DNA of 47,926 nucleotides, from contig ONND01000016.1 of NCBI GenBank assembly GCA_900319105.1, forward strand, positions 1 to 47,926, in the 5' to 3' direction. Of this stretch, positions 87-34,936 are shown piece after piece. Below the pieces are notes generated by a model. That model did not search any database. It saw nothing but the letters and a program-made list of their open reading frames with translations, and was not told the DNA's origin. A program made the position numbers and the translations under genes. The DNA is from an uncultured Bacteroidales bacterium. GTDB lineage: Bacteria; Bacteroidota; Bacteroidia; Bacteroidales; Paludibacteraceae. The number at the start of each line of letters is the position of its first letter. Within the stretch, counting starts at the first letter, position 1.

Positions 87-362
87 CTTTTTCTAAAAAG
101 GTTTTTTGCATTTCGCGGCTCCGCCGCTGAATTGCAACCTTCTTTCAAGAAGGTTTTTAAACTAGTTTTACTAGTTCATCTAGTTAGACTAGTTCTACTA
201 GAACTCTATTGCTTTCGCTCGCGAAAGCTCTTACATTCGTTGATCTGTCAACCCCATATGGTGGTTGAGTGTGGTGGTGGCTTGGTTTTCACCATTAAGC
301 GGCATAGCCGCGTCACCATTGAGCAAGTTTTGCTTGCGCTCATTCCATCATTAACCTATATT
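87..362 (+). other. 23S-5S internal transcribed spacer, hairpin-rich
   Basis: A 23S-5S spacer of about 275 nt without a gene. It holds a series of small perfect hairpins: GCGGCTCCGCCGC (115-127), a 9-bp stem AACCTTCTT/AAGAAGGTT (136-155), CTTTCGC/GCGAAAG (near 214-229), GCGGCATAGCCGC (near 300-312) and a GCAAG/CTTGC stem near 323-337. Between the second and third lies an array of five CTAG tetramers with exact 9-nt spacing. The stems may be RNase processing sites, which is inference. Confidence 0.7.
162..206. repeat. CTAG array, 5 units, 9-nt period
   Basis: CTAG tetramers begin at 162, 171, 180, 189 and 198, exactly 9 nt apart. The unit is CTAGTTNNN, the last unit being CTAGAACTC. Two other arrays in this window (15575 and 34897) also have exactly five CTAGs but an 8-nt period. 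Confidence 0.9.
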
Positions 363-473
363 TAGGTGGTTATAGCGCTGAGGTCCCACCCCTTCCCATT
401 CCGAACAGGGTCGTTAAGCTCAGCATCGCCGATGGTACTGCACTGCGTTGTGGGAGAGATATCGTAAGATACC
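363..473 (+). rRNA. 5S rRNA
   Basis: Recognised from the conserved 5S core GGTCCCACCCCTTCCCATTCC, then GAACAGGGTCGTTAAGCTC and GCCGATGGTACTGC, in the right order and spacing. Total length is about 110 nt. It follows the 23S gene on the same strand, so it is the last gene of an rrn operon. Ends are estimated to within a few nucleotides. Confidence 0.93.
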
Positions 474-532
474 GGGCTTCTTTGTATATGTGGCGATGCT
501 ACCTACTCTCCTTCCGTGTTGTTCTCGCAAAT

Positions 533-1405
533 TTACAATCCCTTCTGGTATGCTTTAGGAGAAAGCCCTGTATAGCGATGGAAGTATTTGCCGAAAGTAG
601 ATTGGTCGGAGAAATGGAGTGCATCGGCTACTTCTGCTACAGTAGCATCAGGCATGCTAAGCTGTGTTTTAGCTTTAAGAATTACATGTTCCTGAATCCA
701 TTTGCTTGCCGGTTTATGGGTGTATTGCGAAACTACATTGGCAACATATTTGGGTGATAGGCACATTTTACGCGCATAAAATTCAATACCTCGTTCTTGG
801 TGGCAGTGTTCATGTACAAGTTGTACGAACTTGTTGACCAATATTTCCTCCCGTGATTGCTTGTTATGTTGCTCCAAATGGTGAAAATAATAGCCTACAC
901 CATAATATAATGCGCGTGTAAGGTTAATAATAATCTCCAATCTGTAGGGGTTGGATTCTTGCTGCATAGCGCGCTTGACCATAGTGAAAAACATCTCTAT
1001 GTGCTCATAGGTCTCTTCGTTAAGCGTAACAATTGGATAGTTTGTGATGGTTTTCCGGATATTGAACTTACTGGAGATGTTGAGTTGTGTTGTGAAATGG
1101 TCAGACATGAGAATGGTTTTTCCCTTGATTTGCTCTGAGTGGTCAATGAACTCGAGGATGTCATCCTTGAAAAAAATAACGAGTGACGGGGCCTGGACAT
1201 GTACATCTATGAGGTTAATACGTCCGTGTATTGTTCCTTCTTCTATGATTACTGCGGTAGTCATGGGAGCCAAAAAATAAGGAGGGAAATCCGGCGTTAA
1301 GTCTAAATCATCCGTTATGATGATTTCATCGCCCAGTTTGTTTACCTGAATACGGCTGCTATCTGCAAGCCTGAAAATTTGCGCGAGATGAGAATATCTG
1401 TTCAT
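533..1405 (-). CDS. AraC family transcriptional regulator
   Basis: A 290-residue protein with a C-terminal AraC-type DNA-binding domain (about residues 190-288). The two helix-turn-helix units are visible: the first around GIEFYARKMCLSPKYVANVV, the second around ATVAEVADALHFSDQSTFGKYF, closing with the family signature GLSPKAYQK. The N-terminal half is a probable sensor domain of unknown ligand. ATG at 1405 is chosen because a promoter fits just upstream (-7 box 1427-1434); a GTG at 1411 is also in frame. It is divergent from the dehydrogenase at 1555, so that gene is a plausible target, which is inference. Confidence 0.92.
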   Translation of the reverse strand: MNRYSHLAQIFRLADSSRIQVNKLGDEIIITDDLDLTPDFPPYFLAPMTTAVIIEEGTIHGRINLIDVHVQAPSLVIFFKDDILEFIDHSEQIKGKTILMSDHFTTQLNISSKFNIRKTITNYPIVTLNEETYEHIEMFFTMVKRAMQQESNPYRLEIIINLTRALYYGVGYYFHHLEQHNKQSREEILVNKFVQLVHEHCHQERGIEFYARKMCLSPKYVANVVSQYTHKPASKWIQEHVILKAKTQLSMPDATVAEVADALHFSDQSTFGKYFHRYTGLSPKAYQKGL

Positions 1406-1426
1406 GTACACATGCTATTTTGTCTG

Positions 1427-1457
1427 CAAAAATACTATTTTTTCTTCAATTATGCAA
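1427..1457 (-). promoter_or_regulatory. Promoter of AraC regulator
   Basis: Minus strand: -33 TTGCATAATTG, exactly 20 nt between TTG and the -7 box TATTTTTG, which has a preceding G. This places the transcription start about 15 nt upstream of the ATG at 1405. Confidence 0.75.
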
Positions 1458-1498
1458 ACTTTTCTACTATTATGACCATTTTTTGTGTTATATTGCCC

Positions 1499-1529
1499 TT
1501 TTCTGTATTATGAAATTGTAGTACCTTTG
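1499..1529 (+). promoter_or_regulatory. Promoter of short-chain dehydrogenase
   Basis: Clear -7 box TACCTTTG at 1522-1529, preceded by G. The -33 position reads TTT rather than TTG at 20-nt spacing, a weak match that would suit activator-dependent transcription, for example by the divergent AraC protein (inference). Confidence 0.6.
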
Positions 1530-1554
1530 CACTGAATTTTAACATATAGGTATT

Positions 1555-2469
1555 ATGGACTTAAAAGACAAAACATTTGTAGTCACAGGAGGTGGCAGCG
1601 GATTAGGTCGCCAATTGACCATAGAGTTGGTAAAAGTGGGTGCTAAAGTAGCCGCAATCGACATTAATGAGGACGGATTGGTCCAAACAGTCAAATTGGC
1701 AGGTGAACTAAGTAGTATGATTTATCCTATTGTATGTAATATTACAGACAAGGAAGCTGTGAATGCTTTGCCGGAGCGCGTGTTACGCCGTAGTGGGCAT
1801 ATTAATTGCTTAATCAATAATGCCGGTATCATTCAACCGTTTGTGAATGTGGAGGAGATGGATGATGCTCTGATTAACCGTATTTTCGCCATCAATTTCT
1901 TTGGAACCCTCTATATGGTGCGTGCGTTTCTGCCACATATGCGCAAAGAAAATGAGTCTTGTTTGGTTAATGTATCCTCATTAGGTGGTTTTGTACCGGT
2001 GAGTGGTCAAACGATATACGGCGCGAGTAAAGCTGCGGTGAAACAACTGACGGATGGTTTGCGCGCGGAGTTAGATGGTACGAGTGTTCATGTAATGAGT
2101 GTTATCCCGGGAGCAATGGCTACGCAGATTCGGGAAAACTCGGGCTTGGGTGCTATACATGTAGAAGAGCAGAAAACGAATAAGGTACTTGATCCTATGG
2201 TTGCCGCGCACTTAATTGTAGAGGGCATCAAAAAGAAGGAAAAGGAGTTGTATATAGGTGCTGATAGTCGCTTGATGCATAATCTATTCCGTTTCATACC
2301 TTTGCGGGCTGCCAAATGGTTGAATGACAGTATTCGCCGCCAGCACGCGAACTCCTTAGTCAGAGTAGGTAGCTATGCTTTGCCGCCACTCTCCTTCCTT
2401 TCGAGGAAGGGGCTTGGGGGTAGGCTTCCCCTCCATTTAGTGAGCCGGAGGGTAGGTATTGCCGTTTAG
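1555..2469 (+). CDS. Short-chain dehydrogenase/reductase (SDR)
   Basis: A 304-residue classical SDR: NAD(P) motif TGGGSGLG (residues 11-18), an acidic residue in AAIDIN favouring NAD, the NNAG motif, catalytic Ser in NVSSLGG and YGASK with catalytic Tyr and Lys. The substrate is unknown. The last ~30 residues (PPLSFLSRKGLGGRLPLHLV and beyond) are not SDR-like and are encoded by a GC-rich hairpin-forming element at about 2389-2455, so the native C-terminus seems to have been replaced or extended. The stop overlaps the convergent nucleotidase gene by 4 bp. Confidence 0.92.
   Translation: MDLKDKTFVVTGGGSGLGRQLTIELVKVGAKVAAIDINEDGLVQTVKLAGELSSMIYPIVCNITDKEAVNALPERVLRRSGHINCLINNAGIIQPFVNVEEMDDALINRIFAINFFGTLYMVRAFLPHMRKENESCLVNVSSLGGFVPVSGQTIYGASKAAVKQLTDGLRAELDGTSVHVMSVIPGAMATQIRENSGLGAIHVEEQKTNKVLDPMVAAHLIVEGIKKKEKELYIGADSRLMHNLFRFIPLRAAKWLNDSIRRQHANSLVRVGSYALPPLSFLSRKGLGGRLPLHLVSRRVGIAV
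2389..2455 (+). repeat. GC-rich hairpin element in the SDR 3' end
   Basis: The stretch has a CTTCCT-ttcg-AGGAAG stem-loop, then GGGGCTTGGGGGTAGG and a CCCCTCC run. It looks like a dispersed intergenic palindromic element captured in frame at the end of the dehydrogenase gene. The copy number elsewhere in the genome cannot be seen here. Confidence 0.4.
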
Positions 2470-4037
2470 TCGTCGAGGATGGTTATTCGGCCCTGCGGGG
2501 AGGCATAGCGGTTAGGAACGACGCCGCCGAGAGTTGTCTCCAGGTAATCGGCGAACGTATCACCGTCGTATTGATTCGGAAGGGGGACTCTGGGACATTG
2601 TTGCAGCACGCCGTTCATACCATCTTCTGCACAGTAGTCGGTAGTGCCGATGGTGTACGTGCCTGTCGGTAGGATGGGCATCCATGTGCCGGTGACGTCA
2701 TCATAGACATCAACGTTGGTAACTGTATGCGAGCGTTGATGCACGGTGTAACGCAGTCCGGCTACTTGCGGGAAGGCGCCACACTCGTCCGGAAGGGAGG
2801 CTGTGCAGCTCTCCAGCATAGCAATAATCGTGCTTCCGGAGGCTTCCACTCTGACCATCTGGTTATTGAAAGGCTGTACGTTAATCACATCTCCGTAAGT
2901 GATTATTCCGGCCGGAATGCTCGCGCGGATACCGCCGCCGTTACAGAGACCGATCTGCGCTTGTGCTATTTCGCGAAACGCATCGGTGATAATATCCGCC
3001 ATGTTCGTTTCGCCGTTACGTACCAGCCGTTTGCCATCTGGCCCGTTGATCGTCAGTTCAAAAGGACAGGTAGCGAGTTGTTTATGCGTTACTTCATCCA
3101 AGAGCTGATAGACGCTGTCGATGGTATGTTGTACCACCGCGCTGGTGAAGCTGAACTCCTGTTGGTTGATGAGCGTTGTAGATATTCGTCCGTCGGGAGA
3201 GATAACCATTTTGCCGATGTTGGCGAATTGTGTTCCGGTCTGTGTCACCGGCACGGTCTGTCCGTCGCGATTAGCGACCTCATCGCGTATGATCACGGAG
3301 TGGGTATGTCCATCGAGAACGATATCGATACCTCGTGTGGCCGCCACCAAGTCATGGGAGGAAATGCCTAAAATAGGTTGTTTCTCGCCCATATGCGAGA
3401 GCAGCACTACATAGTCTGCACCTTCTTTCCTCGCCTGATCAACGGCGGTCTGAACCAGTTGTGGAGCCTCATCGGTGTGCAGATCATAGATGAGATTGCC
3501 GTTTTCATCGTAGAAAGAGTAACTCTCGTCCATCATCGTCTCCGGCGTGAGTACTCCTACGTACGCCACGCGTCGATCTCCGTAGCGGCAGATGACATAC
3601 GGGGCATAATAAGGTGCAGCGGCTCCTGCATCAAAGAAATTCGTGCAGACCACCGGTGCTTGGATTTGCGCCACCAGTTCTTTCATCCGTTCGCCTCCAT
3701 AGTCAAACTCATGATTGCCTATGGTCACGGCATCATAGTGTATCTGACGCATGATATCCACGATATACTGCCCTTCGGACAGCGATCCGGCAACCCCTCC
3801 TTGCAGGTAGTCTCCGCTGCAGACGACAGCGACCCAGGCTGTGTCCGTTGCCTCGATCGCGTCCCGCAATCCGGCTAACTTGGCGTAATTGTCGATAGCG
3901 CAATGCACATCATTCTCATACAGAATGACGATACTTTTCGGCTGCTGGGGAACGTCCTGTTTGTTCTTGCAAGCAGTTAACATTCCCTGTGCGAGCATGC
4001 AGAGGAGGGCAAGTGTATTGCAGAATGTCTTTTTCAT
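2466..4037 (-). CDS. 5'-nucleotidase / cyclic phosphodiesterase lipoprotein (UshA family)
   Basis: A 523-residue two-domain enzyme that hydrolyses nucleotides outside the cytoplasm. A lipoprotein signal ends in LTAC (Cys23). The metallophosphoesterase domain shows ENDVHC (usual form NDxHG, so here the Gly is Cys), GDYLQGG, GNHEFDYG, HMGE and DGHTHS. The C-terminal nucleotidase domain shows NGGGIRASIPAGIITYGDV and the substrate-stacking region QPFNN. It is the last gene of a three-gene operon, 16 nt after the DUF1893 lipoprotein. Confidence 0.93.
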   Translation of the reverse strand: MKKTFCNTLALLCMLAQGMLTACKNKQDVPQQPKSIVILYENDVHCAIDNYAKLAGLRDAIEATDTAWVAVVCSGDYLQGGVAGSLSEGQYIVDIMRQIHYDAVTIGNHEFDYGGERMKELVAQIQAPVVCTNFFDAGAAAPYYAPYVICRYGDRRVAYVGVLTPETMMDESYSFYDENGNLIYDLHTDEAPQLVQTAVDQARKEGADYVVLLSHMGEKQPILGISSHDLVAATRGIDIVLDGHTHSVIIRDEVANRDGQTVPVTQTGTQFANIGKMVISPDGRISTTLINQQEFSFTSAVVQHTIDSVYQLLDEVTHKQLATCPFELTINGPDGKRLVRNGETNMADIITDAFREIAQAQIGLCNGGGIRASIPAGIITYGDVINVQPFNNQMVRVEASGSTIIAMLESCTASLPDECGAFPQVAGLRYTVHQRSHTVTNVDVYDDVTGTWMPILPTGTYTIGTTDYCAEDGMNGVLQQCPRVPLPNQYDGDTFADYLETTLGGVVPNRYASPQGRITILDD

Positions 4038-4053
4038 GGCGGTTGTATGGAGG

Positions 4054-4533
4054 TCATCTATTTTTTAAGATGTTGAAGCACTCTTTGGGGTCGTCAACGC
4101 CGTTGAGACTTTTATCCATGGGGCACTGATCTGTCTGGTTCCGGTTGAGTATCATCGGGATCTCCTCTTCTGCGGAGACCTGAATACCGGCGTTCTCTAA
4201 CATCGCTTTTGCCGGTGTAGAGATGAGGTTGGTATAGACCTGTTTGACTCCTCCGAGAACCATGAGTGCCGCCGCTGCTTTGCCAATCATCTTATCCGCC
4301 ACCACAGCGCCTTGCAGCCGTTGCGGGTCGTTCTCCAGCAGATCCATCAGATCTTTCACTCCCCGCTGGTTATGTTCGGTGATCGTTCCGTTATTGCTGA
4401 CGACAAGACTCACTTGTTGGTCATTGAGGTAGGCGAGCATCTGTTCGTCCGCGATGGAAGGCTTTGTCGATTGCGGTTTCGAGCAGCCGAATAAGGTCAA
4501 AACAACAGTAAGTAAAAGAATAATTTTTTTCAT
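4054..4533 (-). CDS. DUF1893 domain lipoprotein
   Basis: 159 residues with a lipoprotein signal MKKIILLLTVVLTLFGC (Cys17). The mature part matches DUF1893: SLVVSNNGTITEHNQRGVKD, GAVVADKMIGKAAAALMVLG, GGVKQVYTNLIS and the conserved end NRNQTDQCPMDKSL. The family has a deaminase-like fold, but no activity is established. Members are often cytoplasmic, so an exported lipidated version beside a nucleotidase and a reductase is a little unusual. Confidence 0.85.
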   Translation of the reverse strand: MKKIILLLTVVLTLFGCSKPQSTKPSIADEQMLAYLNDQQVSLVVSNNGTITEHNQRGVKDLMDLLENDPQRLQGAVVADKMIGKAAAALMVLGGVKQVYTNLISTPAKAMLENAGIQVSAEEEIPMILNRNQTDQCPMDKSLNGVDDPKECFNILKNR

Positions 4534-4569
4534 TTTGAAAGTGTTAAAGGGTCGGTGGATAAAAGAGGT

Positions 4570-5193
4570 CTATCGTATAAAGTGCATCGGTTTCCATTCT
4601 TCTCGTGCCGGCAGTTGCGGAGCGTTTTCGCCGCGTAGTCCACGTATCATCCATGCCAGGTTATGCGCGAGGGTGCGCATGGTCTGCATCCCTTCCGTAT
4701 CCTGTGCCACTTGTCCTTCTTCCCGTCCGTAGGCGATGTTCCAGTACTGCGATGTAGCTAAGGGCATGTTCATCATCTGCAGCGGCATCTGGAGTGCTTC
4801 AAAAGCGGCTGTAGCGCCTCCACGACGGCAGATCGTAACGACAGCGGCGGGTTTATTCTGCATGTTCGCTCCGTTGGAGAAGCATAGACGTTGCATGATA
4901 GCGAGCAGTGCGCCGTTGGGCTGGCCGTAGTAAACAGGCGAGCCAAAAACGAAACCGTCCGCATCGGCGAAGGTGGCGGAGATGGTATTGCATACATCAT
5001 CGTCGAAGACACAGCGTCCGTTGCCTTTCGTTTTGCAGGTGCCGCAAGCGATGCAACCGCGAAGAGGCTTGTTGCCGATCCAAACAATCTCAGAGTCGAT
5101 GCCTTCTGTCCGGAGCGTCTGAGCTATTTCGCTAAGTGCGGTAAACGTGTTGCCGTTCTTACGGGGCGAACCATTAATGAGGATTACTTTCAT
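4570..5193 (-). CDS. Flavodoxin-like NAD(P)H-dependent oxidoreductase
   Basis: 207 residues of the NADPH-dependent FMN reductase family. The FMN phosphate loop is NGSPRKNGNT (residues 6-15), followed by a Cys-rich insert CIACGTCKTKGNGRC (about residues 51-65) typical of iron-sulfur flavoprotein-like reductases, then GSPVYYGQPNG for flavin contact. The substrate is unknown. It is first in the operon with the two lipoproteins; the 36-nt gap to the next gene supports cotranscription. Confidence 0.9.
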   Translation of the reverse strand: MKVILINGSPRKNGNTFTALSEIAQTLRTEGIDSEIVWIGNKPLRGCIACGTCKTKGNGRCVFDDDVCNTISATFADADGFVFGSPVYYGQPNGALLAIMQRLCFSNGANMQNKPAAVVTICRRGGATAAFEALQMPLQMMNMPLATSQYWNIAYGREEGQVAQDTEGMQTMRTLAHNLAWMIRGLRGENAPQLPAREEWKPMHFIR

Positions 5194-5224
5194 ATTTATT
5201 TTGGTTTGTATTCATTTTTGAGCG

Positions 5225-5255
5225 CAAAGGTACAAAAAATTATTGATATGTGCAA
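5225..5255 (-). promoter_or_regulatory. Promoter of reductase-lipoprotein operon
   Basis: Minus strand: extended -33 TTGCACATATCA, 20 nt after TTG, then -7 TACCTTTG with a preceding G. It lies about 30 nt upstream of the ATG at 5193. Confidence 0.85.
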
Positions 5256-5302
5256 ACAAAAAATGAATAATATGAGCTTATTAGCCTTCTTTTTATCTTC
5301 TG

Positions 5303-5341
5303 TAGGTATTGCGTATGTCGAAAAAAAGCAGTACCTTTGCA
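5303..5341 (+). promoter_or_regulatory. Promoter of first TonB receptor (39-bp duplicated block)
   Basis: TTG at 5309, 20-nt spacing, -7 TACCTTTG at 5332-5339. All 39 bp of this block are identical to 7662-7700 in front of the second receptor. It is open in frame with the receptor (which would read MRMSKKSSTFA), but the promoter boxes show it is not coding. Confidence 0.9.
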
Positions 5342-5362
5342 CCCGATTTTGATTTGACGAAA

Positions 5363-7642: not shown

Positions 7643-7661
7643 GAGGCTAAATCCCTATTTT

Positions 7662-7700: not shown

Positions 7701-7718
7701 GCGTTTTTGACGAATGAG

Positions 7719-15360: not shown

Positions 15361-15404
15361 GCATATATTCGGCATATATTGAGCATATATTCAGCATATA
15401 TTGG
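15361..15404. repeat. 11-bp tandem repeat, 4 units
   Basis: Four exact-length units with consensus GCATATATTSR begin at 15361, 15372, 15383 and 15394. Eight inner bases are identical in all four copies. It lies downstream of the 118-residue gene, before the terminator. Confidence 0.9.
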
Positions 15405-15524
15405 GATAAGCTGGAAAACAGATGGAAGGGAGGGAATGAATCCCTTTCTATATGCCGATTAGTAATCGGCGTAAATGCCAAGAATCTTTCTTCGGACGTT
15501 TGGCCGAAGCAGGGGACGAAACAA

Positions 15525-15566: not shown

Positions 15567-15574
15567 ATAGGCGA

Positions 15575-15610
15575 CTAGGAAACTAGGAGCCTAGGAATCT
15601 AGGGGGCTAG
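15575..15610. repeat. CTAG array, 5 units, 8-nt period
   Basis: CTAG begins at 15575, 15583, 15591, 15599 and 15607, exactly 8 nt apart. The array abuts the nqrF stop codon (15611-15613). Confidence 0.9.
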
Positions 15611-16894
15611 TTAGCCGCCGAAGTTATCGAAGCGGATGTCTGCATCATCAACGCCCAGCGAGTGGAGCAGGTCGAGGACGGTCTTGGCCATCATAGGAGG
15701 ACCGCAGAGGTAGTACTCGATATCCTCGGGAGCGTCATGCTGCTTGAGGTAGGTGTCGCCCATCACAGGAGCGATGAAGCCCGGGGTGTACTTGATACCC
15801 AGTTGGTCTGCCTTCGGATCCTGACGGTCGAGCGCGAGATGGAAATGGAAGTTCGGGAACTCCTTTTCCAAAGCGAGGAAATCGTCGAGGAAGAAGACTT
15901 CGTCGATAGCACGTGCGCCGTAGAAATAGTGCATCTGACGGTCGCGGCAGTTGCGGGTCTTCAACATGTGCATGATCTGCGCACGCAGCGGAGCCATACC
16001 GGCACCACCTCCGACCCAGATCATCTCCTTCTTGCTGTCATAGACAGGACGGAACTCACCGTAAGGACCGCTCATGCGTACCTTGTCGCCCGGTTTGAGC
16101 GAGAAGATATACGTGGAAGCGATACCGCAGGGTACATCCATGAACTCAGGCCCATTCGGGCACTGCTCTTTGGGTTTGAACGGCGGGGTGGCGATACGTA
16201 CGGTAAGGGTGATGATGTCGCCCTCGTCGGGGTAGTTCGCCATCGAATAAGCACGTACTGTTGCCTGGGTGTTCTTCTGTTTGAGTTTGAAGAGCCCGAA
16301 CTTCTGCCAAGCCGGCAGATAGAGGTCACCGATGAGCGATTTATCCATGTCGCGGTCGTAGTCGATGTCGTACTCAGGGATGATGATCTGTGCGTACGAA
16401 CCCGGCTCGAAGTGCATGTGCTCGCCCGGAGGCAGCTGCACCTTGAACTCTTTGATGAAGGTAGCGACGTTCTTGTTGGAGATGACTTCGCATTCCCATT
16501 CTTTCACGCCGAGTACGGCTTCATCGACCTTCATGGTGATGTCTTCTTTCACTTTGACCTGGCAACCCAGACGCCAGCCTTCTTTCTGCTGTTTGCGGGA
16601 GAAATGGACGGTTTCGGTAGGCAGGATCTCGCCGCCTCCGGAGAGGACTTGGCACTTACACTGACCGCACGAGCCCTTACCGCCGCAAGCAGAGGGGAGG
16701 TGAACACCGGCTTCGCCGAGTTGGTTGAGGAGCGAGCCACCTGCTGCCACGTCGTACACCTTGTCGCCGTTGATGGTCACTTTGACGTTACCGGAAGAGA
16801 CGAGGTAGCGTTTAGCGATGAGCAGGATAGCCACTAACAGGAGTATTACTACTAAGAATACTGCAACTGCATAAATAATAGCTGTTATATTCAT
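15611..16894 (-). CDS. nqrF: Na+-translocating NADH:quinone reductase subunit F
   Basis: 427 residues; the NADH-oxidising subunit. One N-terminal membrane helix (about residues 5-27), a 2Fe-2S ferredoxin domain with CGGKGSCGQCKC plus a distal Cys in RLGCQVK, then an FAD and NADH domain: RAYSMANYP (FAD), GGGAGMAPLRAQI and FYGARAIDEVFF (NAD), and the end CGPPMM with DNFGG. Full length for the family. It is the last gene of nqrABCDEF, 15 nt after nqrE, and is closed by a strong terminator. GGAGGAAC lies just upstream of the start. Confidence 0.97.
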   Translation of the reverse strand: MNITAIIYAVAVFLVVILLLVAILLIAKRYLVSSGNVKVTINGDKVYDVAAGGSLLNQLGEAGVHLPSACGGKGSCGQCKCQVLSGGGEILPTETVHFSRKQQKEGWRLGCQVKVKEDITMKVDEAVLGVKEWECEVISNKNVATFIKEFKVQLPPGEHMHFEPGSYAQIIIPEYDIDYDRDMDKSLIGDLYLPAWQKFGLFKLKQKNTQATVRAYSMANYPDEGDIITLTVRIATPPFKPKEQCPNGPEFMDVPCGIASTYIFSLKPGDKVRMSGPYGEFRPVYDSKKEMIWVGGGAGMAPLRAQIMHMLKTRNCRDRQMHYFYGARAIDEVFFLDDFLALEKEFPNFHFHLALDRQDPKADQLGIKYTPGFIAPVMGDTYLKQHDAPEDIEYYLCGPPMMAKTVLDLLHSLGVDDADIRFDNFGG

Positions 16895-26511: not shown

Positions 26512-26528
26512 GTAAATAAAAAATATAT

Positions 26529-27788: not shown

Positions 27789-27790
27789 CC

Positions 27791-28747
27791 ATGAAAAAGT
27801 ATGCTTTAGGAATCGACTTGGGCGGAACCGGTACCAAGTTCGGTCTGGTAAACGAAGATGGACAAGTTCTTCGCAGTAATTCTATTCCCACGCAGCAGTA
27901 CCCGGATATCGAAGAGTACTGCGACGTACTATGCCAAGGTTTGAAACAACTGGTAGCCGATGAAGGGCTGACGATGAGCGATATAGTCGGAGTGGGCTGC
28001 GGCGCACCGAACGCCAATTTCTATACGGGCTGCATCGAGCAGGCGCCGAACCTGCCATGGAAAGGGGTAGTACCGTTTGCTAAGTTGATCAGCGAGCGGA
28101 TGGGTGTCAAATGTACCATCACCAATGATGCTAATGCGGCGGCGCAAGGAGAGATGATCTACGGCTCGGCACGCGGCATGAAGAATTTCATCGTCATCAC
28201 CCTCGGAACGGGTGTAGGCTCTGGTATCGTGATAGATGGCAAACTGCTCTACGGCCATGACGGTTTTGCCGGCGAGTTGGGTCACTGTAAGATCGACCAC
28301 AGTGGAAACGGTCGTCTCTGCGGTTGTGGTCAGAAGGGCTGTATAGAGGCTTATGCTTCGGCGACAGGTGTCGCTCGTACCGCCAAAGAGATCGTGACGA
28401 GTACGACGCAGCCTACGCTCTTACGTAACGTAGCGGATATCGATCATATCACGAGTAAGGATGTCTTCGATGCAGCCGAGAAAGGCGATCTGGTAGCCAA
28501 AGAGATATTCGATTATACCGGACATCTGCTTGGACAAAAACTGGCGGATTATGTACATTTCTCCAGCCCGGAGGCGATCATCCTCTTTGGCGGTCTGACC
28601 AAATCGGGTCACTGGATTATGGATCCTATCCGTGAGGCATTGGACGCGAACCTGATGCCGATCTGGAAGGGTAAGATCCCTGTTTCTATCTCGGTACTCA
28701 AGGATAGCGATGCAGCCATCCTCGGTGCCTCCAGTCTGGCTTGGTAA
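27791..28747 (+). CDS. ROK family sugar kinase (glucokinase-like)
   Basis: 318 residues. ATP site GIDLGGTGTKFG (residues 7-18), catalytic Asp in TNDANAAAQGE, phosphate motif LGTGVGSGIV, zinc site GHCKIDHSGNGRLCGCGQKGCIE with His and three Cys, and FGGLTKSG near the C-terminus. Most likely phosphorylates glucose or a related hexose brought in by the preceding transporter. The stop overlaps the next start by one base (TAATG). Confidence 0.93.
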   Translation: MKKYALGIDLGGTGTKFGLVNEDGQVLRSNSIPTQQYPDIEEYCDVLCQGLKQLVADEGLTMSDIVGVGCGAPNANFYTGCIEQAPNLPWKGVVPFAKLISERMGVKCTITNDANAAAQGEMIYGSARGMKNFIVITLGTGVGSGIVIDGKLLYGHDGFAGELGHCKIDHSGNGRLCGCGQKGCIEAYASATGVARTAKEIVTSTTQPTLLRNVADIDHITSKDVFDAAEKGDLVAKEIFDYTGHLLGQKLADYVHFSSPEAIILFGGLTKSGHWIMDPIREALDANLMPIWKGKIPVSISVLKDSDAAILGASSLAW

Positions 28748-29376
28748 TGGGTGTTCTCAAGAATATAGCGCAACGTCTTTATCCATGCGGCACATGCCGC
28801 GTGGGTAAAGCGGTGTATCTGACTTTCGATGATGGTCCGATACCCGAAGTAACCCCGAAAGTACTGGAGATCTTGTCCCGGTACGGCGTGAAAGCAACGT
28901 TCTTCATGGTGGGGGAGAATATCGACAAACACCCCGATGTGTTTGCTCAGGTCGTGAAGGCCGGGCATAGTATAGCGAATCATACCTACAATCATATGAA
29001 GGGTTGGCGCGTGTCCACCGCCAAGTATATCGCGAATGTGCGGAAGTGGGAAGAGGCTGCTAAACGAAATTACCCTGCCGGCTGTCCTCCTCTTGTGCTG
29101 AGCCGGTTCAGACCTCCCTACGGACGTACGTGGGTATGGCAGCGCAAAGCGGTAAAGAAATTAGGATATGAGATCTATCTATGGGATGTCCTGACGCGCG
29201 ATTACAACCGCTCGCGCACGCCGGAGGCAATGCTTCGTCAGATCCAGCGACAGACGCGACCGGGCAGTATTATCAATTTTCACGATTCCATCAAATCCAA
29301 TGATCGGATGTTAGAGGTACTGCCTAAAGCAATCGAGTGGCTACAAAAAGAGGGCTACGAACTCGCAACCCTCTAA
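28747..29376 (+). CDS. Polysaccharide deacetylase (NodB domain, CE4)
   Basis: 209 residues. The five CE4 motifs are present: TFDDGP (catalytic base and metal Asp), HSIANHTYNH (metal His pair), RFRPPYGR, a Trp-containing LWDVLTRDY and the final INFHDS. There is no signal peptide, so it may act in the cytoplasm or be anchored otherwise. It probably removes acetyl from a glycan or peptidoglycan precursor. Last gene of the operon begun at 23214. Confidence 0.92.
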   Translation: MGVLKNIAQRLYPCGTCRVGKAVYLTFDDGPIPEVTPKVLEILSRYGVKATFFMVGENIDKHPDVFAQVVKAGHSIANHTYNHMKGWRVSTAKYIANVRKWEEAAKRNYPAGCPPLVLSRFRPPYGRTWVWQRKAVKKLGYEIYLWDVLTRDYNRSRTPEAMLRQIQRQTRPGSIINFHDSIKSNDRMLEVLPKAIEWLQKEGYELATL

Positions 29377-29403
29377 CCTCTAACCACTACCCCCTAACCG
29401 TTT
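29367..29403. repeat. 7-nt period array (CTAACCN)
   Basis: About five units of CTAACCT, CTAACCA, CTACCCC, CTAACCG type. It covers the deacetylase stop, the whole 25-nt gap and the first bases of panB's 3' end. Confidence 0.8.
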
Positions 29404-30217
29404 AGTAGCTTTCCTCTTCGGATGGGAAGCTACTGTTTTTTACGGCGTCAATATAGTTGCCGACAGCGTTCTTGATCTCGCTGGCAAGGGCAGCAAAACG
29501 GCGGAGGAACTTAGGCTTGAAGCCCTGATTCATACCGAGCATGTCCTGAAGAACGAGCACTTGTCCGTCGCAGCCGTTACCGGCGCCGATACCGATGACA
29601 GGGCACGAAACGGCTTTGGTAACACGTGCGGCCAGCGCTGCAGGGATCTTCTCCAATACGATGGAGAAACAGCCTGCTTCGTCCAACAGTTTGGCGTCGT
29701 GCAGCAGTTTTTCCGCTTCCGCGTCATCTTTGGCACGCAATCCGTAGCCGCCGAACTGATTCACCGATTGAGGCGTGAGGCCGAGATGTCCCATTACCGG
29801 CACACCGGCCTGAATCATGTGACGGATAGCCGGAAGGATCTCTTCGCCGCCTTCTAACTTGACGGCATCACAACCGGATTCCTTCATGATCTTGATAGCA
29901 TTGCGCACCGCTTCCTCTTCGCTGATTTGGTAACTGCCGAAGGGCATGTCACAAACGACGAGGGCGTGTTGCGCTGCACGCACTACGCCTTTGGTCAGGA
30001 AAATCATCTCATCCACCGTAATAGGCAGTGTGTATAGGTTTCCGCATACAATATTGCTGGCGCTGTCTCCGACGAGGAGCATGTCAATGCCCGCTTCGTC
30101 CACCAGCGATGCCAGTGTGAAATCATAACTCGTTAACATGGCGATCTTCTCGCCCGAAGCCTTCATCTGACGCAGTTTGGAGGTCGTCATTCGGCTATTT
30201 TGTACATGTACACTCAT
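29402..30217 (-). CDS. panB: 3-methyl-2-oxobutanoate hydroxymethyltransferase
   Basis: 271 residues; first step of pantothenate synthesis. Family motifs: TSYDFTLASLVDEAGIDMLLVGDSASN, VCDMPFGSYQ (metal Asp), VKLEGGEE (Lys and Glu in the active site), VPVMGHLGLTPQS, and VIGIGAGNGCDGQVLVLQDMLG. The start at 30217 (MSVHVQNSRM) is placed just downstream of its promoter; the frame is open to 30241 across it. No panC or panD nearby. Confidence 0.96.
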   Translation of the reverse strand: MSVHVQNSRMTTSKLRQMKASGEKIAMLTSYDFTLASLVDEAGIDMLLVGDSASNIVCGNLYTLPITVDEMIFLTKGVVRAAQHALVVCDMPFGSYQISEEEAVRNAIKIMKESGCDAVKLEGGEEILPAIRHMIQAGVPVMGHLGLTPQSVNQFGGYGLRAKDDAEAEKLLHDAKLLDEAGCFSIVLEKIPAALAARVTKAVSCPVIGIGAGNGCDGQVLVLQDMLGMNQGFKPKFLRRFAALASEIKNAVGNYIDAVKNSSFPSEEESY

Positions 30218-30238
30218 AGTATTTTCAAAAAAAACGCA

Positions 30239-30269
30239 CAAAATTACTGCTTTTTTTTGATATGTGCAA
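30239..30269 (-). promoter_or_regulatory. Promoter of panB
   Basis: Minus strand: TTGCACATATCA, 20-nt spacing, -7 TAATTTTG preceded by G. It overlaps the oppositely directed promoter at 30257-30286. Confidence 0.85.
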
Positions 30270-30286
30270 AAAAAAGTGTATCTTTG
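30257..30286 (+). promoter_or_regulatory. Promoter of the FecCD permease gene
   Basis: TTG at 30257, 19-nt spacing, -7 TATCTTTG at 30279-30286. The -33 elements of this and the panB promoter lie within the same 13 bp, so polymerase should occupy only one at a time. Confidence 0.75.
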
Positions 30287-30294
30287 CAGCAGAA

Positions 30295-31269
30295 ATGAAA
30301 CGAAATTCGCTTATATTTGCCCTTTTGGGTGCTTTTTTGCTGATTCTTTTCGGCTTGGATGTGTGTAGCGGCACGATTTGGTTGTGGCCGTTCGGCGAGT
30401 TAAGCCCGATGGAGCAAAATATTCTCTATTCGATACGTTTCCCGAAGGCCGTTACTGCCATCTTGGCAGGTGCATCGCTGTCGGTGGCGGGTCTGATTAT
30501 GCAAACACTTTTCCGAAACCCGTTAGCGGGACCTTATACCTTAGGTGTCTCATCCGGCGCCAGTTTGGGTGTTGCCCTCCTGACGATGCTTGGGGGAGTT
30601 CTTTCAACTTTCAACTTGCAACTTGCAACTCTCGGCTTGCCGGTGGCGGCCTGCCTCGGTGCTACGTTGGTGTTGCTGTTGGTACTGGCGGTAAGCCGCC
30701 GCGTGACGAGTAATGTCAGCTTGCTGATCGTCGGTATGATGTTCGGCTCTATCGCGGGCGCGTTAGTCAGTCTGTTGCAGAACTTCGCCAACCCCGATGC
30801 CCTGAAACTATTTATCGTCTGGACCTTGGGCTCTTTGAGCAGCGTGGGATGGGAGGATATGCAGCTGATGTTGCCGGTATTGGCGGTGGGGGCATTGTTC
30901 GTCCTGCTCTCGCTCAAGCCGTTGAACGGTCTGTTACTCGGCGAAGACTACGCGCGTGGATTAGGAATACACGTTGCGCGCACGCGTTTATATATTGTGT
31001 TGGCTACAGGTCTGTTAGCCGGCGGAGTGACCGCTTTCTGCGGACCGGTGGCCTTCATCGGAGTAGCGGTTCCGCATATAGCCCGCGGGATCTTCCGCAC
31101 CTCGAACCATCGATTGACCATACCGGCTTCGGCTGTAATAGGAGCATGCCTCCTCTTGGTGTGTGATGTGCTCTGCTCGCTCTTCATCTACCCGCTGCCG
31201 ATATCAACTGTCTCGGCGCTCTTCGGAGCACCTGTGATTATTTGGATTATTCTAAAGAATAATCGTTAA
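30295..31269 (+). CDS. FecCD-family ABC transporter permease (iron/siderophore/B12)
   Basis: 324 residues, about nine or ten membrane helices. BtuC/FecD signatures: SIRFPKAVTAILAGASLSVAG, QTLFRNPLAGPYTLGVSSGA, LGEDYARGLGIHVARTR (coupling region to the ATPase), CGPVAFIGVAVPHIAR and an LPISTVSALFGAPVIIWII end. No ATP-binding protein or binding lipoprotein is adjacent, so its partners must be encoded elsewhere. A 7-nt array (30604-30631) is read in frame as STFNLQLATL in a loop between helices. Confidence 0.92.
   Translation: MKRNSLIFALLGAFLLILFGLDVCSGTIWLWPFGELSPMEQNILYSIRFPKAVTAILAGASLSVAGLIMQTLFRNPLAGPYTLGVSSGASLGVALLTMLGGVLSTFNLQLATLGLPVAACLGATLVLLLVLAVSRRVTSNVSLLIVGMMFGSIAGALVSLLQNFANPDALKLFIVWTLGSLSSVGWEDMQLMLPVLAVGALFVLLSLKPLNGLLLGEDYARGLGIHVARTRLYIVLATGLLAGGVTAFCGPVAFIGVAVPHIARGIFRTSNHRLTIPASAVIGACLLLVCDVLCSLFIYPLPISTVSALFGAPVIIWIILKNNR
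30604..30631. repeat. 7-nt period array inside the FecCD permease gene
   Basis: Four units: TCAACTT twice, GCAACTT, GCAACTC. The same TCAACTT unit makes up the long intergenic array at 34994-35130, so the same repeat type occurs in coding and non-coding sequence. Confidence 0.85.
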
Positions 31270-31316
31270 CCCGTTCATTCGTTCATTCGTTCATTCGTTC
31301 ATTCGTTAAATCGTTA
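31264..31316. repeat. 8-nt period array (CGTTCATT), 7 units
   Basis: CGTT begins at 31264, 31272, 31280, 31288, 31296, 31304 and 31312. The four central units are identical (CGTTCATT) and the outer ones diverge. It fills the gap between the permease and GH43 genes, starting inside the permease stop region. Confidence 0.95.
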
Positions 31317-31320
31317 TAAT

Positions 31321-32802
31321 ATGAAACGTTTCTTTTTGACCTTGTTGGTGATCCTTTCACCTTTCGCATTTCATCTTTCGCCTGTATGGGCTTATGACAA
31401 TCCTGTTTTGCCGTATGATTTTTCTAATCCGGATGTCATCCGTTTGGGGAAGTATTACTATATGACCTATAGTTCGTACGCTTCGACGCCGGGTTTGCAG
31501 ATCTTGCGTTCGGAGGATGGCGTGCATTGGAGTTACGTGGACGCGGCTCTGAAGGATACAGTTCCGGGCTACGGCCATTTGGATGCCTGTCCTGCAGGAA
31601 GCGGTGTATGGGCGCCTTCTTTGCGTTTCCATGACGGGCGCTTCTATCTCTATTACGGAGATCCGGATATCGGAATTTATTGTATCCGTTCTGCCCCCAA
31701 AACGGTGAAGATCCCCTGCCAGTGGGAACAGGCAGTATTGGTGAAGAAAGGCAAAGGACTGATTGATCCTTGCCCGGTTTGGGATGCCAAAGGGCGTTGC
31801 TACCTGGTACACGCTTTTGCCGGCAGCCGTGCAGGCTTTGAATCGGCCTTGGCGGTGTGCGAACTGAGTTCGGACGGTCTCTCGGTCATCCATGAGGATG
31901 AGCTGGTATTCGACGGACACCCCTATAACCCGATGGTCAAAGGACCGAAGTTCTACAAACGTAACAGTTACTATTATATCTTCTGCCCTGCCGGAGATGT
32001 TGAGACCGGATGGCAGTTATGCCTGCGTAGCAAGTCGCCTTACGGACCCTATGAGGTGCGTCGTGTCTTAGAGCAAGATACCACGGATATTAACGGTCCA
32101 TACCAGGGTGCTTGGGTGGACAACTGGTTCTATCATTCCCAGGACGCCGGTGCAGCGGGACGTATTGTCCATCTCGAGCCGCTCAAATGGCATTTCGGAT
32201 GGCCGGTCATCGGCGATAAAGGACGTCCTGTCAAGACCGCCAAGGATGAAGGAGCACCTTTCAAAGGTATTGGTGTAGATCCTGTTCACGAAGAGTTCGC
32301 TTCCCGTCCTCTGGCGCCCGAGTGGCAGTGGAGCGGAAACCGTAGCGCGCTGTACTACTATCTCAATCCCGATTCCTCACGTCTGCGTCTGTTCACTTAT
32401 CCTGCCGATAGTGTGGAGATCGCTCCGAACCTCCTGTTGCGTAAGATCCATGCGAATACAGCCTTTACTTTTGAGGCCCGTGTGCGTTTTGTACCGAATA
32501 GGGAGAACCAGCTGCATGAGGAGGCAGGATTGATTATTCAGGGGCGACAAACAAAAACACTGCCCATCTTGAATGATGGACAGTGGTGGTATGCTCGTAT
32601 CGTCATGGATAAGAAGCAGGTATGCCATTTCTATCTGTCAAGCGACGGACATACTTGGGCGTTAGTCGATGACGGTTTTCAAGCCGAGGCGGACGAACAG
32701 GTCGGCACGCGTATCGGATTCTATGCCACTCGGGACCGCAAGCGTTTCCATGACGCCGGCTATCTCGATATCGACTGTGTGGATATCACCCCGGCACTTT
32801 AA
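31321..32802 (+). CDS. GH43 family glycosidase, catalytic acid replaced
   Basis: 493 residues. Signal peptide [25 protein letters not shown] five-bladed GH43 propeller: general base Asp in SNPDVI (about residue 37), pKa-modulating Asp in IDPCPVWD, and [13 protein letters not shown] as expected of the xylosidase/arabinosidase-like subfamily. The usual EGPKFYK segment, which holds the acid Glu, reads VKGPKFYK: the Glu is Lys. A C-terminal beta-sandwich domain (about residues 330-493) is retained. Expected family role is release of arabinose or xylose from plant glycans; with Lys at the acid position activity should be lost or strongly reduced. Confidence 0.9.
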
Positions 32803-34859
32803 TTCCGGAACCGTAACTCTCCGTCTCTCAGCTCCACAATGACCGGCTTGGATGAATCGACCTTGCCGGCGATGATGGATTTGCTCAATTCGTTGAGTAC
32901 AAGCCGTTGCAGCGCTCTCTTGACAGGACGTGCACCGAACTGCGGATCGTAGCCTTCTTTGGCGATATACGTCATCGCGTCGTCCGTCACACGCAGGTCG
33001 ATTCCTTGACCTTCGAGCATCTTATGGATGCGGCTCACTTGCAGCCCGACTACCGCCTTGATGTTCTCTTCGGTCAGTTCGCTGAAGTGGATGATCTCGT
33101 CAATACGGTTGATGAACTCCGGCCGTACTTGGGCGCGCAGTTGCTCTTCCGTCAGGTTGGAGGTCATGATGATCAAGGTGTTCTTGAAGTTCACGAGCCT
33201 TCCTTTGTTATCCGTCAGACGGCCATCGTCCAATACCTGCAGCAGGACATTAAAGACATCGGGATGCGCTTTCTCGATCTCATCGAAGAGGACGACGGAG
33301 TAGGGTTTGCGTCGGATGGCTTCGGTCAGTTGACCGCCTTCATCGTAACCTACGTATCCCGGAGGCGCACCGATGAGTCGCGTCGCGCTGAATTTCTCCT
33401 GATACTCACTCATATCAATACGCGTCATCATGTTCTCGTCGTCGAACAGGTAATCCGCCAGTGCTTTCGCCAACTCGGTCTTACCGACACCGGTCGTACC
33501 GAGAAAGATGAACGAACCGATCGGTCTCTTCGGGTCTTGGAGCCCGGCACGGCTACGACGGATAGCATCGCTCACGGCTTCGATAGCTTGGTCTTGACCA
33601 ATGACACGTTTGTGCAGCTCTTCCTCCAAATGCAGCAGTTTGTCGCGCTCGGATTGCATCATTTTCGCAACCGGAATACCCGTCCAGCGGGCTACTACTT
33701 CGGCGATGTCGTCTTCATCGACTTCCTCTTTGATAAGCGATTCGTTGCCTAATTGGTGCAGAGTGTCTTGCGCGGATTTGATGTTCGCTTCCGCGGCAGG
33801 GATCTGGCTGTAACGGATCTCCGCTACCTTGCCGTAATCGCCCTCACGCTCAGCCACCTCGGCTTGATGTTTCAAGGTCTCGATACGCGCTTTCTCGTTC
33901 TGGATAGTAGCTACGTAGCCTTTCTCCTTGTTCCAACGCGCGTTGAGCTCATCCGATTTGGCTTTGAGTTCTTTGAGTTGATTCTCTATCTCGCCGAGTT
34001 TGGCTGCGTCTTTATCGCGTTTGATCGCTTCGCGCTCGATCTCCAATTGTTTGATCTGACGGTCGAGCGAATCGATCTCTTCCGGTTTGGAATCCACCTC
34101 CAGACGCAGTTTGGCTGCGGCTTCATCTACCAGGTCGATCGCTTTATCCGGCAGGAAACGGTCGGTGATATACCGTGCCGAGAGGCTGACGGCGGCAATG
34201 ATTGCATCGTCTTTGATACGCACTTTATGGTGCGTCTCATAGCGCTCTTTCAGTCCACGCAGGATAGAGATCGTCGCGGCCTCGTCCGGCTCATCAACCA
34301 TCACTTTCTGGAATCGGCGCTCCAGGGCTTTATCGGTCTCGAAATACTTCTGATACTCATCGAGCGTAGTAGCACCGATGGCTCTCAAATCACCTCGTGC
34401 CAATGCAGGCTTCAGGATGTTCGCCGCGTCCATCGCACCCGAACTCTTACCGGCACCGACCAAGGTGTGTATCTCATCAATAAAGAGGATGATCTCACCC
34501 GCAGCGGCTACCACTTCGTTCACTACGCCTTTCAGACGCTCTTCGAACTCGCCTTGGTACTTGGCACCGGCTATCAGGGCTCCCATGTCGAGGGAGTAGA
34601 TCTGTTTCTTTTTCAGGTTCTCCGGCACGTCGCCGCGTACGATACGATGGGCCAAGCCCTCCGCGATAGCGGTCTTTCCTACACCCGGTTCTCCGATCAA
34701 AATAGGGTTGTTCTTCGTTCGCCGACTTAAGATCTGTAATACGCGTCGGATCTCGTCATCTCGGCCAATGACGGGATCTAATTTACCTTCCCGAGCTCGC
34801 TCGCAGAGGTTGATCGCGAATTTCTTGAGGTTCTCGTTGTTTTGATTCGTTGCGTTCAT
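32799..34859 (-). CDS. clpB: ClpB-type disaggregase, lacking N domain and part of NBD2
   Basis: 686 residues against about 860 in the family. It starts right at the first ATPase domain ([20 protein letters not shown]). Walker A motifs GEPGVGKT and GTTGVGKT and Walker B motifs ILFIDEIH and VVLFDEIE are intact, and the coiled-coil middle domain is present, so the protein is ClpB and not ClpA or ClpC. Two losses: the ~150-residue N-terminal substrate domain, and about 20 residues in NBD2, where TSNL is followed by only TEEQLRAQV before [10 protein letters not shown]. Upstream DNA holds repeats, not a lost N domain. Its stop overlaps the GH43 stop by 4 bp. Confidence 0.93.
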
Positions 34860-34896
34860 AGTTATAGTGTTTTTGTTATTAATAATGCTTGTTTGA

Positions 34897-34936
34897 CTAG
34901 TTGACTAGTAGACTAGTAGACTAGTAGACTAGTTCA
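34897..34936. repeat. CTAG array, 5 units, 8-nt period
   Basis: CTAG begins at 34897, 34905, 34913, 34921 and 34929. The consensus unit is CTAGTAGA. It lies 38 nt upstream of the clpB start, in the leader or promoter region. Confidence 0.92.

Follow-up and report, generated by a model that had tools for sequence, protein, structure and literature searches.

The TrpR operator contains CTAG half-sites 8 bp apart and the MetJ operator consists of tandem 8-bp boxes, and both are read cooperatively by dimers. A Salmonella study reportedly described conserved intergenic short sequences that contain CTAG, as single words. Direct repeats of the heptamer TAACTGA occur in five Bacteroidetes; many tandem sets per genome lie in intergenic gaps, most of them a few nucleotides upstream of start codons and some overlapping stop codons, ribosomal protein operons are included, and the reader is unknown (MacGregor, 2015; PMC4679880). 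A text search of its main text returned none of the words CTAG, octamer or palindrom-. GGGNATC heptamer repeats in Xanthomonas and Nostoc form dispersed, mostly transcribed arrays; most separate aligned genes and have a stop or start codon no more than 50 bp away, and their preferred copy number of four matches the G-quadruplex requirement of this G-rich word (Rehm, 2015; PMC4692102). REPs are extragenic palindromes of 20–40 nt that mostly follow coding regions; their families carry a GTAG or CGTC tag, and movement by RAYT was proposed for the GTAG-tagged ones (Di Nocera, 2013; PMC3733652). Among the papers listed in literature searches, with subscription journals largely outside their coverage, none had a title or abstract start describing CTAG arrays.

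CTAG arrays in the window

The window, the whole 47,926-nucleotide stretch of DNA analysed here, contains 21 CTAG tetramers against 130 expected from dinucleotide shuffles, and 15 of the 21 lie inside three arrays (Table 1). The earlier note had described three runs of five CTAGs at exact steps of 9, 8 and 8 nt; all three were confirmed, and the second was found to carry an additional degenerate unit.

Table 1. Arrays and adjoining genes in the window
Feature	Position	Strand	Description
Array 1	162..201	.	Five CTAG, step 9; 23S-5S rRNA spacer
Array 2	15567..15610	.	Five CTAG, step 8 (15575-15610), plus degenerate in-register unit ATAG (15567-15570)
nqrF	15611..16894	-	Na+-translocating NADH:ubiquinone reductase subunit F; NCBIfam TIGR01941, 534.5 bits, cut-off 295
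ClpB-type ATPase	32799..34859	-	686 aa, without the ClpB N-terminal part; downstream of array 3
Array 3	34897..34932	.	Five CTAG, step 8; 37 nt upstream of the clpB-type start codon (minus strand)

The spacers of array 1 are, in order, TTTTA, TTCAT, TTAGA and TTCTA, and those of array 3, on the plus strand, are TTGA followed by three copies of TAGA. Array 2 lies between the nqrF stop codon (minus strand), which abuts it, and an inverted repeat resembling the nqrF terminator. The nqrF product was matched in 81 of 101 genus genomes, fragments among the matches. The ClpB-type ATPase scored 1144 bits over positions 149–852 of NCBIfam TIGR03346, short of that family's equivalog cut-off (1232), and its N-terminal 200 residues had matches in all 101 genomes at E 0.001, several of them to a weaker relative only. 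An array of at least three CTAGs was present at 5 of the 30 nqrF orthologue loci viewed and likewise at 5 of the 30 clpB loci viewed. Among the matches listed for the 23S-5S spacer, the RUG12502 record (L055) has a five-unit CTAG array at step 8 in the same place as array 1, G003 has a GAGTGAA-type octamer array there and G045 a TACG-type array; inspection of the spacers of G023, G025, G028, G039 and G014 found no such CTAG array.

A genome-wide family with a modal copy number at gene boundaries

The own genome (G000), probably that of an uncultured member of the Bacteroidales, yielded 85 matches to the pattern CTAGN{4,5}CTAGN{4,5}CTAG against 1 to the reversed (GATC) pattern. For runs of four units whose middle gap is 4, the counts were 26 and 0; chance origin is therefore excluded. 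CTAG triplets at 8–9-nt steps were present in 46 of 61 genus genomes, ranging from 0 to 239 across the sampled genomes, and in 20 of 396 genomes of a class-level survey. In 388 kb sampled from the own genome, the frequency of lone CTAG was 0.06 times the expected one. Across 11 sampled genomes the value was 0–0.10 in nine and 0.25 and 0.38 in the other two. With regard to a possible restriction-modification signal at CTAG, depletion was equally strong in four array-less relatives (0.02–0.08). Array densities from the 20 sampled stretches are biased, since 9 of them were picked for listed arrays, beside consecutive runs of 7 from contig C5 and 4 from C8.

The earlier note had asked for a genome-wide check of preferred period and copy number, and the pattern survived it in counts covering the whole genome by pattern and about a fifth of the genome by sequence, with periods 8 and 9 and a mode of five units. 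Exactly five units were found in 36 of 54 arrays in 1.3 Mb of genus DNA when one-mismatch units were counted, a figure inflated by orthologous copies counted several times, and, when array ends were not extended, in 31 of 55 distinct arrays (12 of the 55 have period 9). In a separate intergenic count, similarly inflated, the five-unit share was 25/46 for CTAG arrays of period 8 or 9, compared with 19/96, 40/152 and 22/98 for other arrays of period 8, 7 and 11, respectively (p 7e-5 to 6e-4). Period-7 arrays of other words were also slightly commonest at five (37, 36, 40 and 22 arrays with 3, 4, 5 and 6 units), and long arrays of 8 to 51 units exist in G037, G056, G101 and G215. Copy number in CTAG arrays peaks at five rather than falling off steadily as in a microsatellite. 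No compensating changes were noticed by eye in mismatched units, and we know of no structural reason for a preference for five.

Placement was evaluated for 24 arrays with gene calls from a simple longest-ORF script. Twenty-two had a stop codon no more than 4 nt away or lay at most 40 nt before a start codon, against an intergenic background of 16%. A stop codon was overlapped or within 4 nt in 15 arrays, and 16 lay at most 40 nt upstream of a start. As 6 of the 15 stop-adjacent arrays overlap an ORF end while the background comprises non-coding positions only, stops are compared fairly when the 18 non-overlapping arrays are taken, 9 of which adjoin a stop, against 1.7%. Together with one array in an rRNA spacer, the 22 at stops or starts make 23 of 24 arrays that are predicted to be transcribed but not translated. 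One array of the own genome (L139) falls inside a 259-aa ORF call at the edge of a stretch.

The motif within arrays is dyad-symmetric. The base following CTAG was T, G, A or C in 90, 54, 52 and 3 cases, and the complement of the preceding base in 97, 66, 33 and 3, so that C after or G before CTAG is nearly excluded. An adjacent C was found at 12 of 600 array flanks and at 125 of 498 flanks of lone CTAGs (p 1.4e-33), the flank counts again including repeated orthologous copies. Motif and flanks are also nearly strand-symmetric relative to the gene. Spacers are distinct within arrays, so the units are not identical over the full period as microsatellite units would be. Among 27 distinct five-unit arrays, spacer identity was 0.325 between arrays and 0.52–0.66 within one array. 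A comparison that took in 80 of 118 loci, and whose pattern required five units at step 8 so that copy numbers are bounded below, gave a mean unique-spacer fraction of 0.83 for 24 arrays at 20 loci titled Bacteroidales or Paludibacteraceae and of 0.25 for 43 arrays at 42 loci of other taxa.

Conservation, turnover and origin of the arrays

Arrays are conserved at certain orthologous loci and are present or absent at others. At kbl-tdh, five genomes (G000, G034, G059, G250 and G258) share 31 nt of the array without a single difference, while the adjacent 60-nt bins, the left of which includes up to 9 further array bases, are 0.80–0.88 identical to G000. This divergence right beside an identical array indicates that there is no long transfer tract and disfavours transfer of the array plus its flanks; the array alone may have been transferred. 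Identity at four-fold sites of kbl was 0.54–0.83 among G034, G059, G250 and G258, G000 differing in length. Moreover, the array before kbl shares 35 of 36 nt between G000 and G222, with a four-fold identity of 0.41 (185 sites). At clpB, the leaders of G022 and G222 differ, by eye, by an array insertion without other rearrangement, and spacers differ among the species that carry an array; this lack of spacer retention speaks against selection of the element. The earlier note had proposed that only tetramer, spacing and number are kept, which is correct between loci and at clpB and fails at the kbl gaps, where the bases between are retained. Its doubt about simple copying was borne out, because spacers differ from locus to locus.

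Array number differs sharply between near relatives: 38 in G055 and 1 in G021, whose assembly is only 63% complete, and 20 in G014 and 3 in G054. On the kbl tree, with array counts for 57 of 85 rows and an analyst-chosen threshold of 14 for array-rich genomes, 11 changes between rich and poor were counted. Such jumps would be odd for an essential element and also speak against selection. The CTAG-poor G021 has period-8 arrays of TAAC/GTTA and CGAG instead, with about five or six units. Since orthologous gaps sometimes hold arrays of other words (ACGT-, TCGA-, CTCG- and TAAC-type), the gap slot and the architecture may count more than CTAG itself.

These substitutions also fit a neutral account, in which the gaps of this genus constantly gain period-7, -8, -9 and -11 arrays by slippage or template switching, CTAG being one outcome, and in which short gaps and the intolerance of coding DNA leave arrays at stop and start codons. 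The genus is indeed rich in such repeats (152, 96 and 98 non-CTAG intergenic arrays of period 7, 8 and 11 in 1.92 Mb, against 4, 4 and 11 in shuffled sequence), spacers inside one array resemble each other, and an array can start at the stop codon itself. However, arrays of period 8 to 10 have CTAG as their core more often than any other word despite its depletion as a lone word, the five-unit peak is weaker or absent in other arrays, the flank rule is missing at lone CTAGs, and arrays are nearly unchanged where synonymous sites have diverged far. We regard neutral repeats as a rather unlikely explanation. Slippage, which the earlier note had listed as a possible cause, probably helps to create arrays, because the DNA of the genus abounds in other period-7, -8 and -11 arrays; alone it leaves CTAG dominance, the peak at five and the conservation unexplained. 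Nothing noticed in the analysis pointed to a replication or repair process acting on CTAG, which the earlier note had also suggested.

An element acting in RNA would agree with the predicted transcribed, untranslated placement. The transcript could form a short, imperfect hairpin in which CUAG/CUAG helices are nested, or it could offer a row of sites to a factor that binds or processes RNA at cistron junctions and at the 23S-5S rRNA junction. The predicted folds of array RNAs (mean -11.1 kcal/mol, n = 51) are also more stable than those of dinucleotide shuffles (mean z -2.55) and of within-spacer letter shuffles (mean z -1.02). Yet CTAG palindromes pair by construction, the predicted hairpin needs only four units, and a single-strand reader would need none of the near strand symmetry observed. 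Facing spacers 1-4 and 2-3 were not more complementary (0.33 and 0.49) than other pairs (0.35–0.47), and a nested hairpin running through the spacers was rejected on this ground; the RNA-level reading as a whole is unlikely. A miniature mobile element of the REP kind, with 36–40-nt units inserted by a transposase and later maintained or lost, is very improbable. It would account for presence and absence in orthologous gaps, and the position between co-directional genes and after stops matches that of REPs (PMC3733652), but arrays at different loci are not copies of each other, and visual inspection of the junctions read revealed no target duplication. Nor does the occurrence of the REP-type transposase family Y1_Tnp track that of the arrays: the family matched in 23 of 61 genomes, several of them incomplete, only below the cut-off in G000, and in none of the array-rich G026, G034, G051 and G059. 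A REP-type transposase was accordingly rejected as the source. Transposon target duplications of 8–9 bp were also discarded, no transposon being noticed at arrays in the sequences read. Six-frame stop-codon insulation by a TAG every 8 nt was judged unlikely, since TAG recurs in just a single frame of period-9 arrays and stops serve no purpose in rRNA spacers.

A putative reader and relation to known systems

The retention of some CTAG arrays over long evolutionary times points to a previously undescribed genetic element. Our preferred reading, held tentatively and at somewhat less than even confidence, is that these arrays (CTAG5) are a dispersed family of short (34–44 bp) selected cis-elements, predicted to be transcribed and untranslated, and read at CTAG by a putative cooperative dimer. 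A series of binding sites, as the earlier note had suggested, is still the best fit, and is preferred on account of the motif's dyad symmetry and of a flank rule seen in arrays alone, although no binder was found. TrpR (PF01371) and MetJ (PF01340) were rejected as readers, neither family being detected in any of 61 genus genomes; positive controls were obtained in E. coli and B. subtilis for TrpR and in E. coli for MetJ.

A typical CTAG5 has five CTAG palindromes evenly spaced, 8 or 9 bp from one to the next, and occupies an untranslated operon gap predicted to be transcribed: behind a stop codon, ahead of a start codon, within a 3' untranslated region or in the 23S-5S spacer. Arrays would arise when gap DNA, in which short tandem arrays abound generally, duplicates locally in tandem, and would become fixed at five as a putative homodimeric CTAG-reading factor binds cooperatively, five dimers side by side. 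On DNA, this factor would label the ends of genes or insulate them; alternatively, it would act on the transcript while the complex moves past. We further speculated, as a quite unlikely extension, that CTAG5 could be a genome-wide gene-boundary mark with its own reader at dozens of operons per genome, in which word and reader would change together between species while slot, period and number stay, as in other co-evolving recognition systems. The arrays offer a large natural experiment, one genus with gaps that do and do not carry arrays and a preferred number of five sites, and whether such arrays are read, and by what, becomes directly testable.

The nearest known counterparts are the TAACTGA and GGGNATC heptamer arrays, bacterial gap arrays without a known reader. 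Like the TAACTGA sets, CTAG arrays are short tandem words in gaps near start codons; unlike them, they lack the conserved heptamer and combine a CTAG core with free spacers. They share dispersal, boundary position and a preferred copy number with the GGGNATC repeats, but prefer five instead of four, and in the arrays listed the units do not each contain a G-tract as a quadruplex would require. The Salmonella sequences are alike in being conserved, intergenic and CTAG-containing and differ in that no arrays are mentioned. As in REPs and BIMEs, CTAG arrays are extragenic with palindromic units, many are plausibly transcribed, and more than half lie at a stop codon, downstream of coding regions; they differ in sharing only the tetramer between loci and in lacking an accompanying Y1_Tnp. 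Finally, they resemble the trp and met operators in presenting palindromic sites at an 8-bp step, but there are dozens of them, typically with five units each, in place of a few operators.

Structure of the CTAG arrays

The earlier note had described three arrays of five CTAG tetramers in the window, and all three were recovered with every CTAG exact (table below). CTAG occurs 21 times in the window against an expectation of 130, and 15 of these copies lie inside the arrays. In the genome to which the window belongs (G000; 2.26 Mb, 30 contigs, 91% complete), 85 CTAG triplets (three CTAGs with 4-5-nt gaps) and 26 four-unit runs were found, versus 1 and 0 for the reversed pattern, the same search with GATC. 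CTAG was the most frequent core among arrays of period 8 to 10, and non-array CTAGs reached 0.06 of expectation in 388 kb of this genome, indicating that the array core is an otherwise strongly avoided word.

Features of the window
Feature	Coordinates	Step or form
CTAG array, 23S-5S rRNA spacer	162-201	five units, step 9
CTAG array, 3' of nqrF	15575-15610	five units, step 8
CTAG array, upstream of clpB	34897-34932	five units, step 8
Palindrome upstream of clpB	34974-34990	ACTGCCATTTTGGCAGT
Further short arrays	31264-31320, 30605-30640, 34997-35030, 15361-15410	CGTTCATT-type octamers (seven units), TCAACTT-type heptamers, 11-nt GCATATATTC array
Dispersed repeat, portion of 23S-5S spacer	279-354	cattaagcggcatagccg...gcttgcgctcat

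The preference for period and copy number suggested by these arrays extended beyond the window. CTAG-to-CTAG steps in 436 kb of G000, window included, were 8 (52), 9 (19), 10 (3) and 16 (5), the last being 8+8 across one changed unit. Among 54 arrays of the genus, counted with one-mismatch units, five units were commonest (36), the other numbers being 3 (2), 4 (7), 6 (5), 7 (1), 10 (1), 13 (1) and 51 (1). The step was uniform in 48 of 55 distinct oriented arrays (8 in 35, 9 in 12, 10 in 1), and 31 of the 55 had five units without end extension. We refer to this family as CTAG5. In a few genomes, step-9 CTAG arrays reach 10 to 51 units (L184 in G056, L180 in G215 and L188 in G101), unlike the five-unit form; the G056 array adjoins a run of N.

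The base 3' of CTAG (T90 G54 A52 C3) and the complemented 5' base (T97 G66 A33 C3) gave similar counts, indicating that the motif is nearly dyad-symmetric. C was adjacent in 12 of 600 array flanks versus 125 of 498 flanks of lone CTAGs. Comparison of 27 arrays gave spacer identities of 0.52-0.66 inside one array and 0.325 across arrays; facing spacers showed no special complementarity. Predicted folding of array RNA was somewhat better than in controls (z -2.55 vs dinucleotide shuffles, -1.02 vs within-spacer shuffles), to some degree because repeated palindromes necessarily fold better.

Gene boundaries and orthologous loci

Among 24 arrays of G000, 15 overlapped a stop codon or lay within 4 nt of one (background 1.7% of intergenic positions), 16 lay at most 40 nt upstream of a start (background 14.8%), and 22 were near a stop or a start in either sense (background 16.0%); the remaining two were in the rRNA spacer and within a called ORF at a stretch edge. 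A Pfam search with 20 of the 35 adjacent ORFs assigned each to a family; many of these are housekeeping genes. The matches include ribosomal proteins S12, S7 and S6, a six-S1-domain protein, Hsp70, a GTPase with KH domain (Era-like), a Glu/Leu/Phe/Val dehydrogenase, and FeoB-type and ABC transporter parts. NCBIfam names were nqrF, a ClpB-type ATPase without the N-terminal part, glycine C-acetyltransferase (kbl) and threonine dehydrogenase (tdh).

At orthologous clpB loci, a conserved TAGTTTGT box precedes the array, which in turn precedes the start codon. We take this box to resemble the Bacteroidetes -7 box and, because the array lies 3' of it, the clpB-leader array is predicted to be transcribed. 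Many of the clpB loci read (among L280-L308) also have an upstream palindrome of the form ACTGnCA-nnn-TGnCAGT, possibly a regulator's operator or a promoter part.

Orthologous loci were read for kbl (90, some ended by contig ends and with a variable downstream part), clpB (30, one of which, in G018, has a misplaced start) and nqrF (30). Arrays of three or more CTAGs were present before kbl in 11 and after kbl in 8 of the 90 loci and, among 30 loci each, in 5 clpB leaders and 5 nqrF 3' regions. The clpB leader of G222 contains 36 nt of array where G022 has a few bases between similar flanks. Position and the number five, with degenerate units counted by eye, were common to the clpB arrays of G000, G222, G270, G254 and G046, and spacers were not shared among these five. 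The RUG12502 record differs from the window in the 23S-5S spacer: its five CTAGs, at the position of the window's step-9 array, follow step 8. Arrays of other words occupy this place in G003 and G045, and a CTAG array is absent there from five further genomes.

One array in the kbl-tdh gap was identical over 31 nt in G000, G034, G059, G250 and G258; neighbouring 60-nt bins were 0.80-0.88 identical to G000, and kbl four-fold sites among the latter four genomes were 0.54-0.83 identical. The array before kbl differed at 1 of 36 nt between G000 and G222, with a four-fold identity of 0.41. On the kbl tree, the array-rich label needed 11 changes, below every one of 500 shuffles, and near relatives differed in array-rich or array-poor state.

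Other repeats were seen at these loci. In the gap upstream of kbl (L191, L194, L196, L214, L226 and others), the upstream gene's 3' end appeared by eye to be duplicated, inverted and direct, a pattern suggestive of template switching. Pieces of the nqrF 3' end (~30-120 codons) recur within the same genome (G014:C8, G039:C50, G058, G279, G256) in both orientations, some with stops, and near nqrF in G014 and G039; they resemble an integrative element for which this end of nqrF would serve as attachment site. The dispersed repeat of the 23S-5S spacer has partial matches on contigs C4, C17, C20 and C22 of G000 and in several relatives.

Distribution across taxa and other short arrays

At least one triplet was present in 46 of 61 genus genomes (range 0 to 229) and in 18 of the 27 with completeness of at least 90% and contamination of at most 5%; G215 had 239. 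Within the family, 43 of 200 genomes had matches, spread over 7 of 33 genera; counts were high in one other genus (g9; 83 and 260 triplets) and moderate in another (g15; up to 32). Across the class, 20 of 396 genomes matched, own included, the remaining ones with 1-9 triplets each.

A search of named genomes for period-8 arrays of five units gave at least 118 stretches, of which 80 titled loci were compared. Among the matches listed, the 20 Bacteroidales- or Paludibacteraceae-titled loci had varied spacers (24 arrays; five units in 15, six in 2), and 42 loci from further taxa, among them Vibrio and Rhodobacteraceae, held mostly perfect microsatellites (43 arrays; five, six and seven units in 9, 7 and 7, without a drop after five). 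Nine Kiritimatiellae-, Victivallales- or Verrucomicrobia-titled loci among these matches also had varied spacers, and their 10 arrays lacked a five-unit peak (five units in 2, six in 3). Perfect octamer microsatellites included CTAGAAAA or CTAGTTTT in 8 to 16 units under Rhodobacteraceae-type titles (L026, L040, L058, L059, L069, L086, L092) and CTAGAGAG or CTAGCTCT in Vibrio maerlii (L017, L083, L084).

Intergenic arrays without CTAG were also abundant in 1.92 Mb of genus DNA (199 kb intergenic). They clustered at periods 7 (152), 8 (96), 9 (31) and 11 (98), versus 4, 4, 6 and 11 in a single shuffled control, and were scarce at 6, 10, 12 and 13. Copy number in these arrays had no sharp maximum, being flat from 3 to 5 at period 7, whereas five units were found in 25 of 46 CTAG arrays with period 8 or 9; this excess (p 7e-5 vs other period-8, 6e-4 vs period-7 and 2e-4 vs period-11 arrays) is inflated by orthologous copies. 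Of two CTAG-poor genomes, G021 had five TAAC/GTTA, two CGAG and one degenerate CTAG array of period 8 in 158 kb, and G002 a single period-8 array in 160 kb.

Possible mechanisms and known repeats

Selection on the CTAG5 element is the best-supported reading, given the preferred number, the invariant core, the array-specific symmetric flank rule, the boundary placement and the conservation beyond synonymous sites at two loci. The background rich in other arrays agrees with pure slippage, but the CTAG-specific features are left unaccounted for by it. As to what selection would act on, a cooperative dimer reading every CTAG on DNA would fit the dyad symmetry and constant step, and a role at the transcript level would fit the array placement.

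TrpR and MetJ are known readers of tandem 8-bp palindromes; profile searches of 61 genus genomes found neither family. The distribution of REP-type transposases, considered as a source, does not follow the arrays. As descriptions of CTAG5, REP, TrpR operator, MetJ operator, perfect microsatellite and G4 repeat each fail on a defining feature, and no description of CTAG arrays was found in the literature searched. CTAG5 is of the same kind as the TAACTGA repeats (PMC4679880) and the GGGNATC repeats (PMC4692102). Both of these are short words repeated in tandem, dispersed over gene boundaries, and for GGGNATC structure sets a preferred copy number. CTAG5 differs from both in its palindromic tetramer core with free spacers, its two main steps and its preferred number of five.
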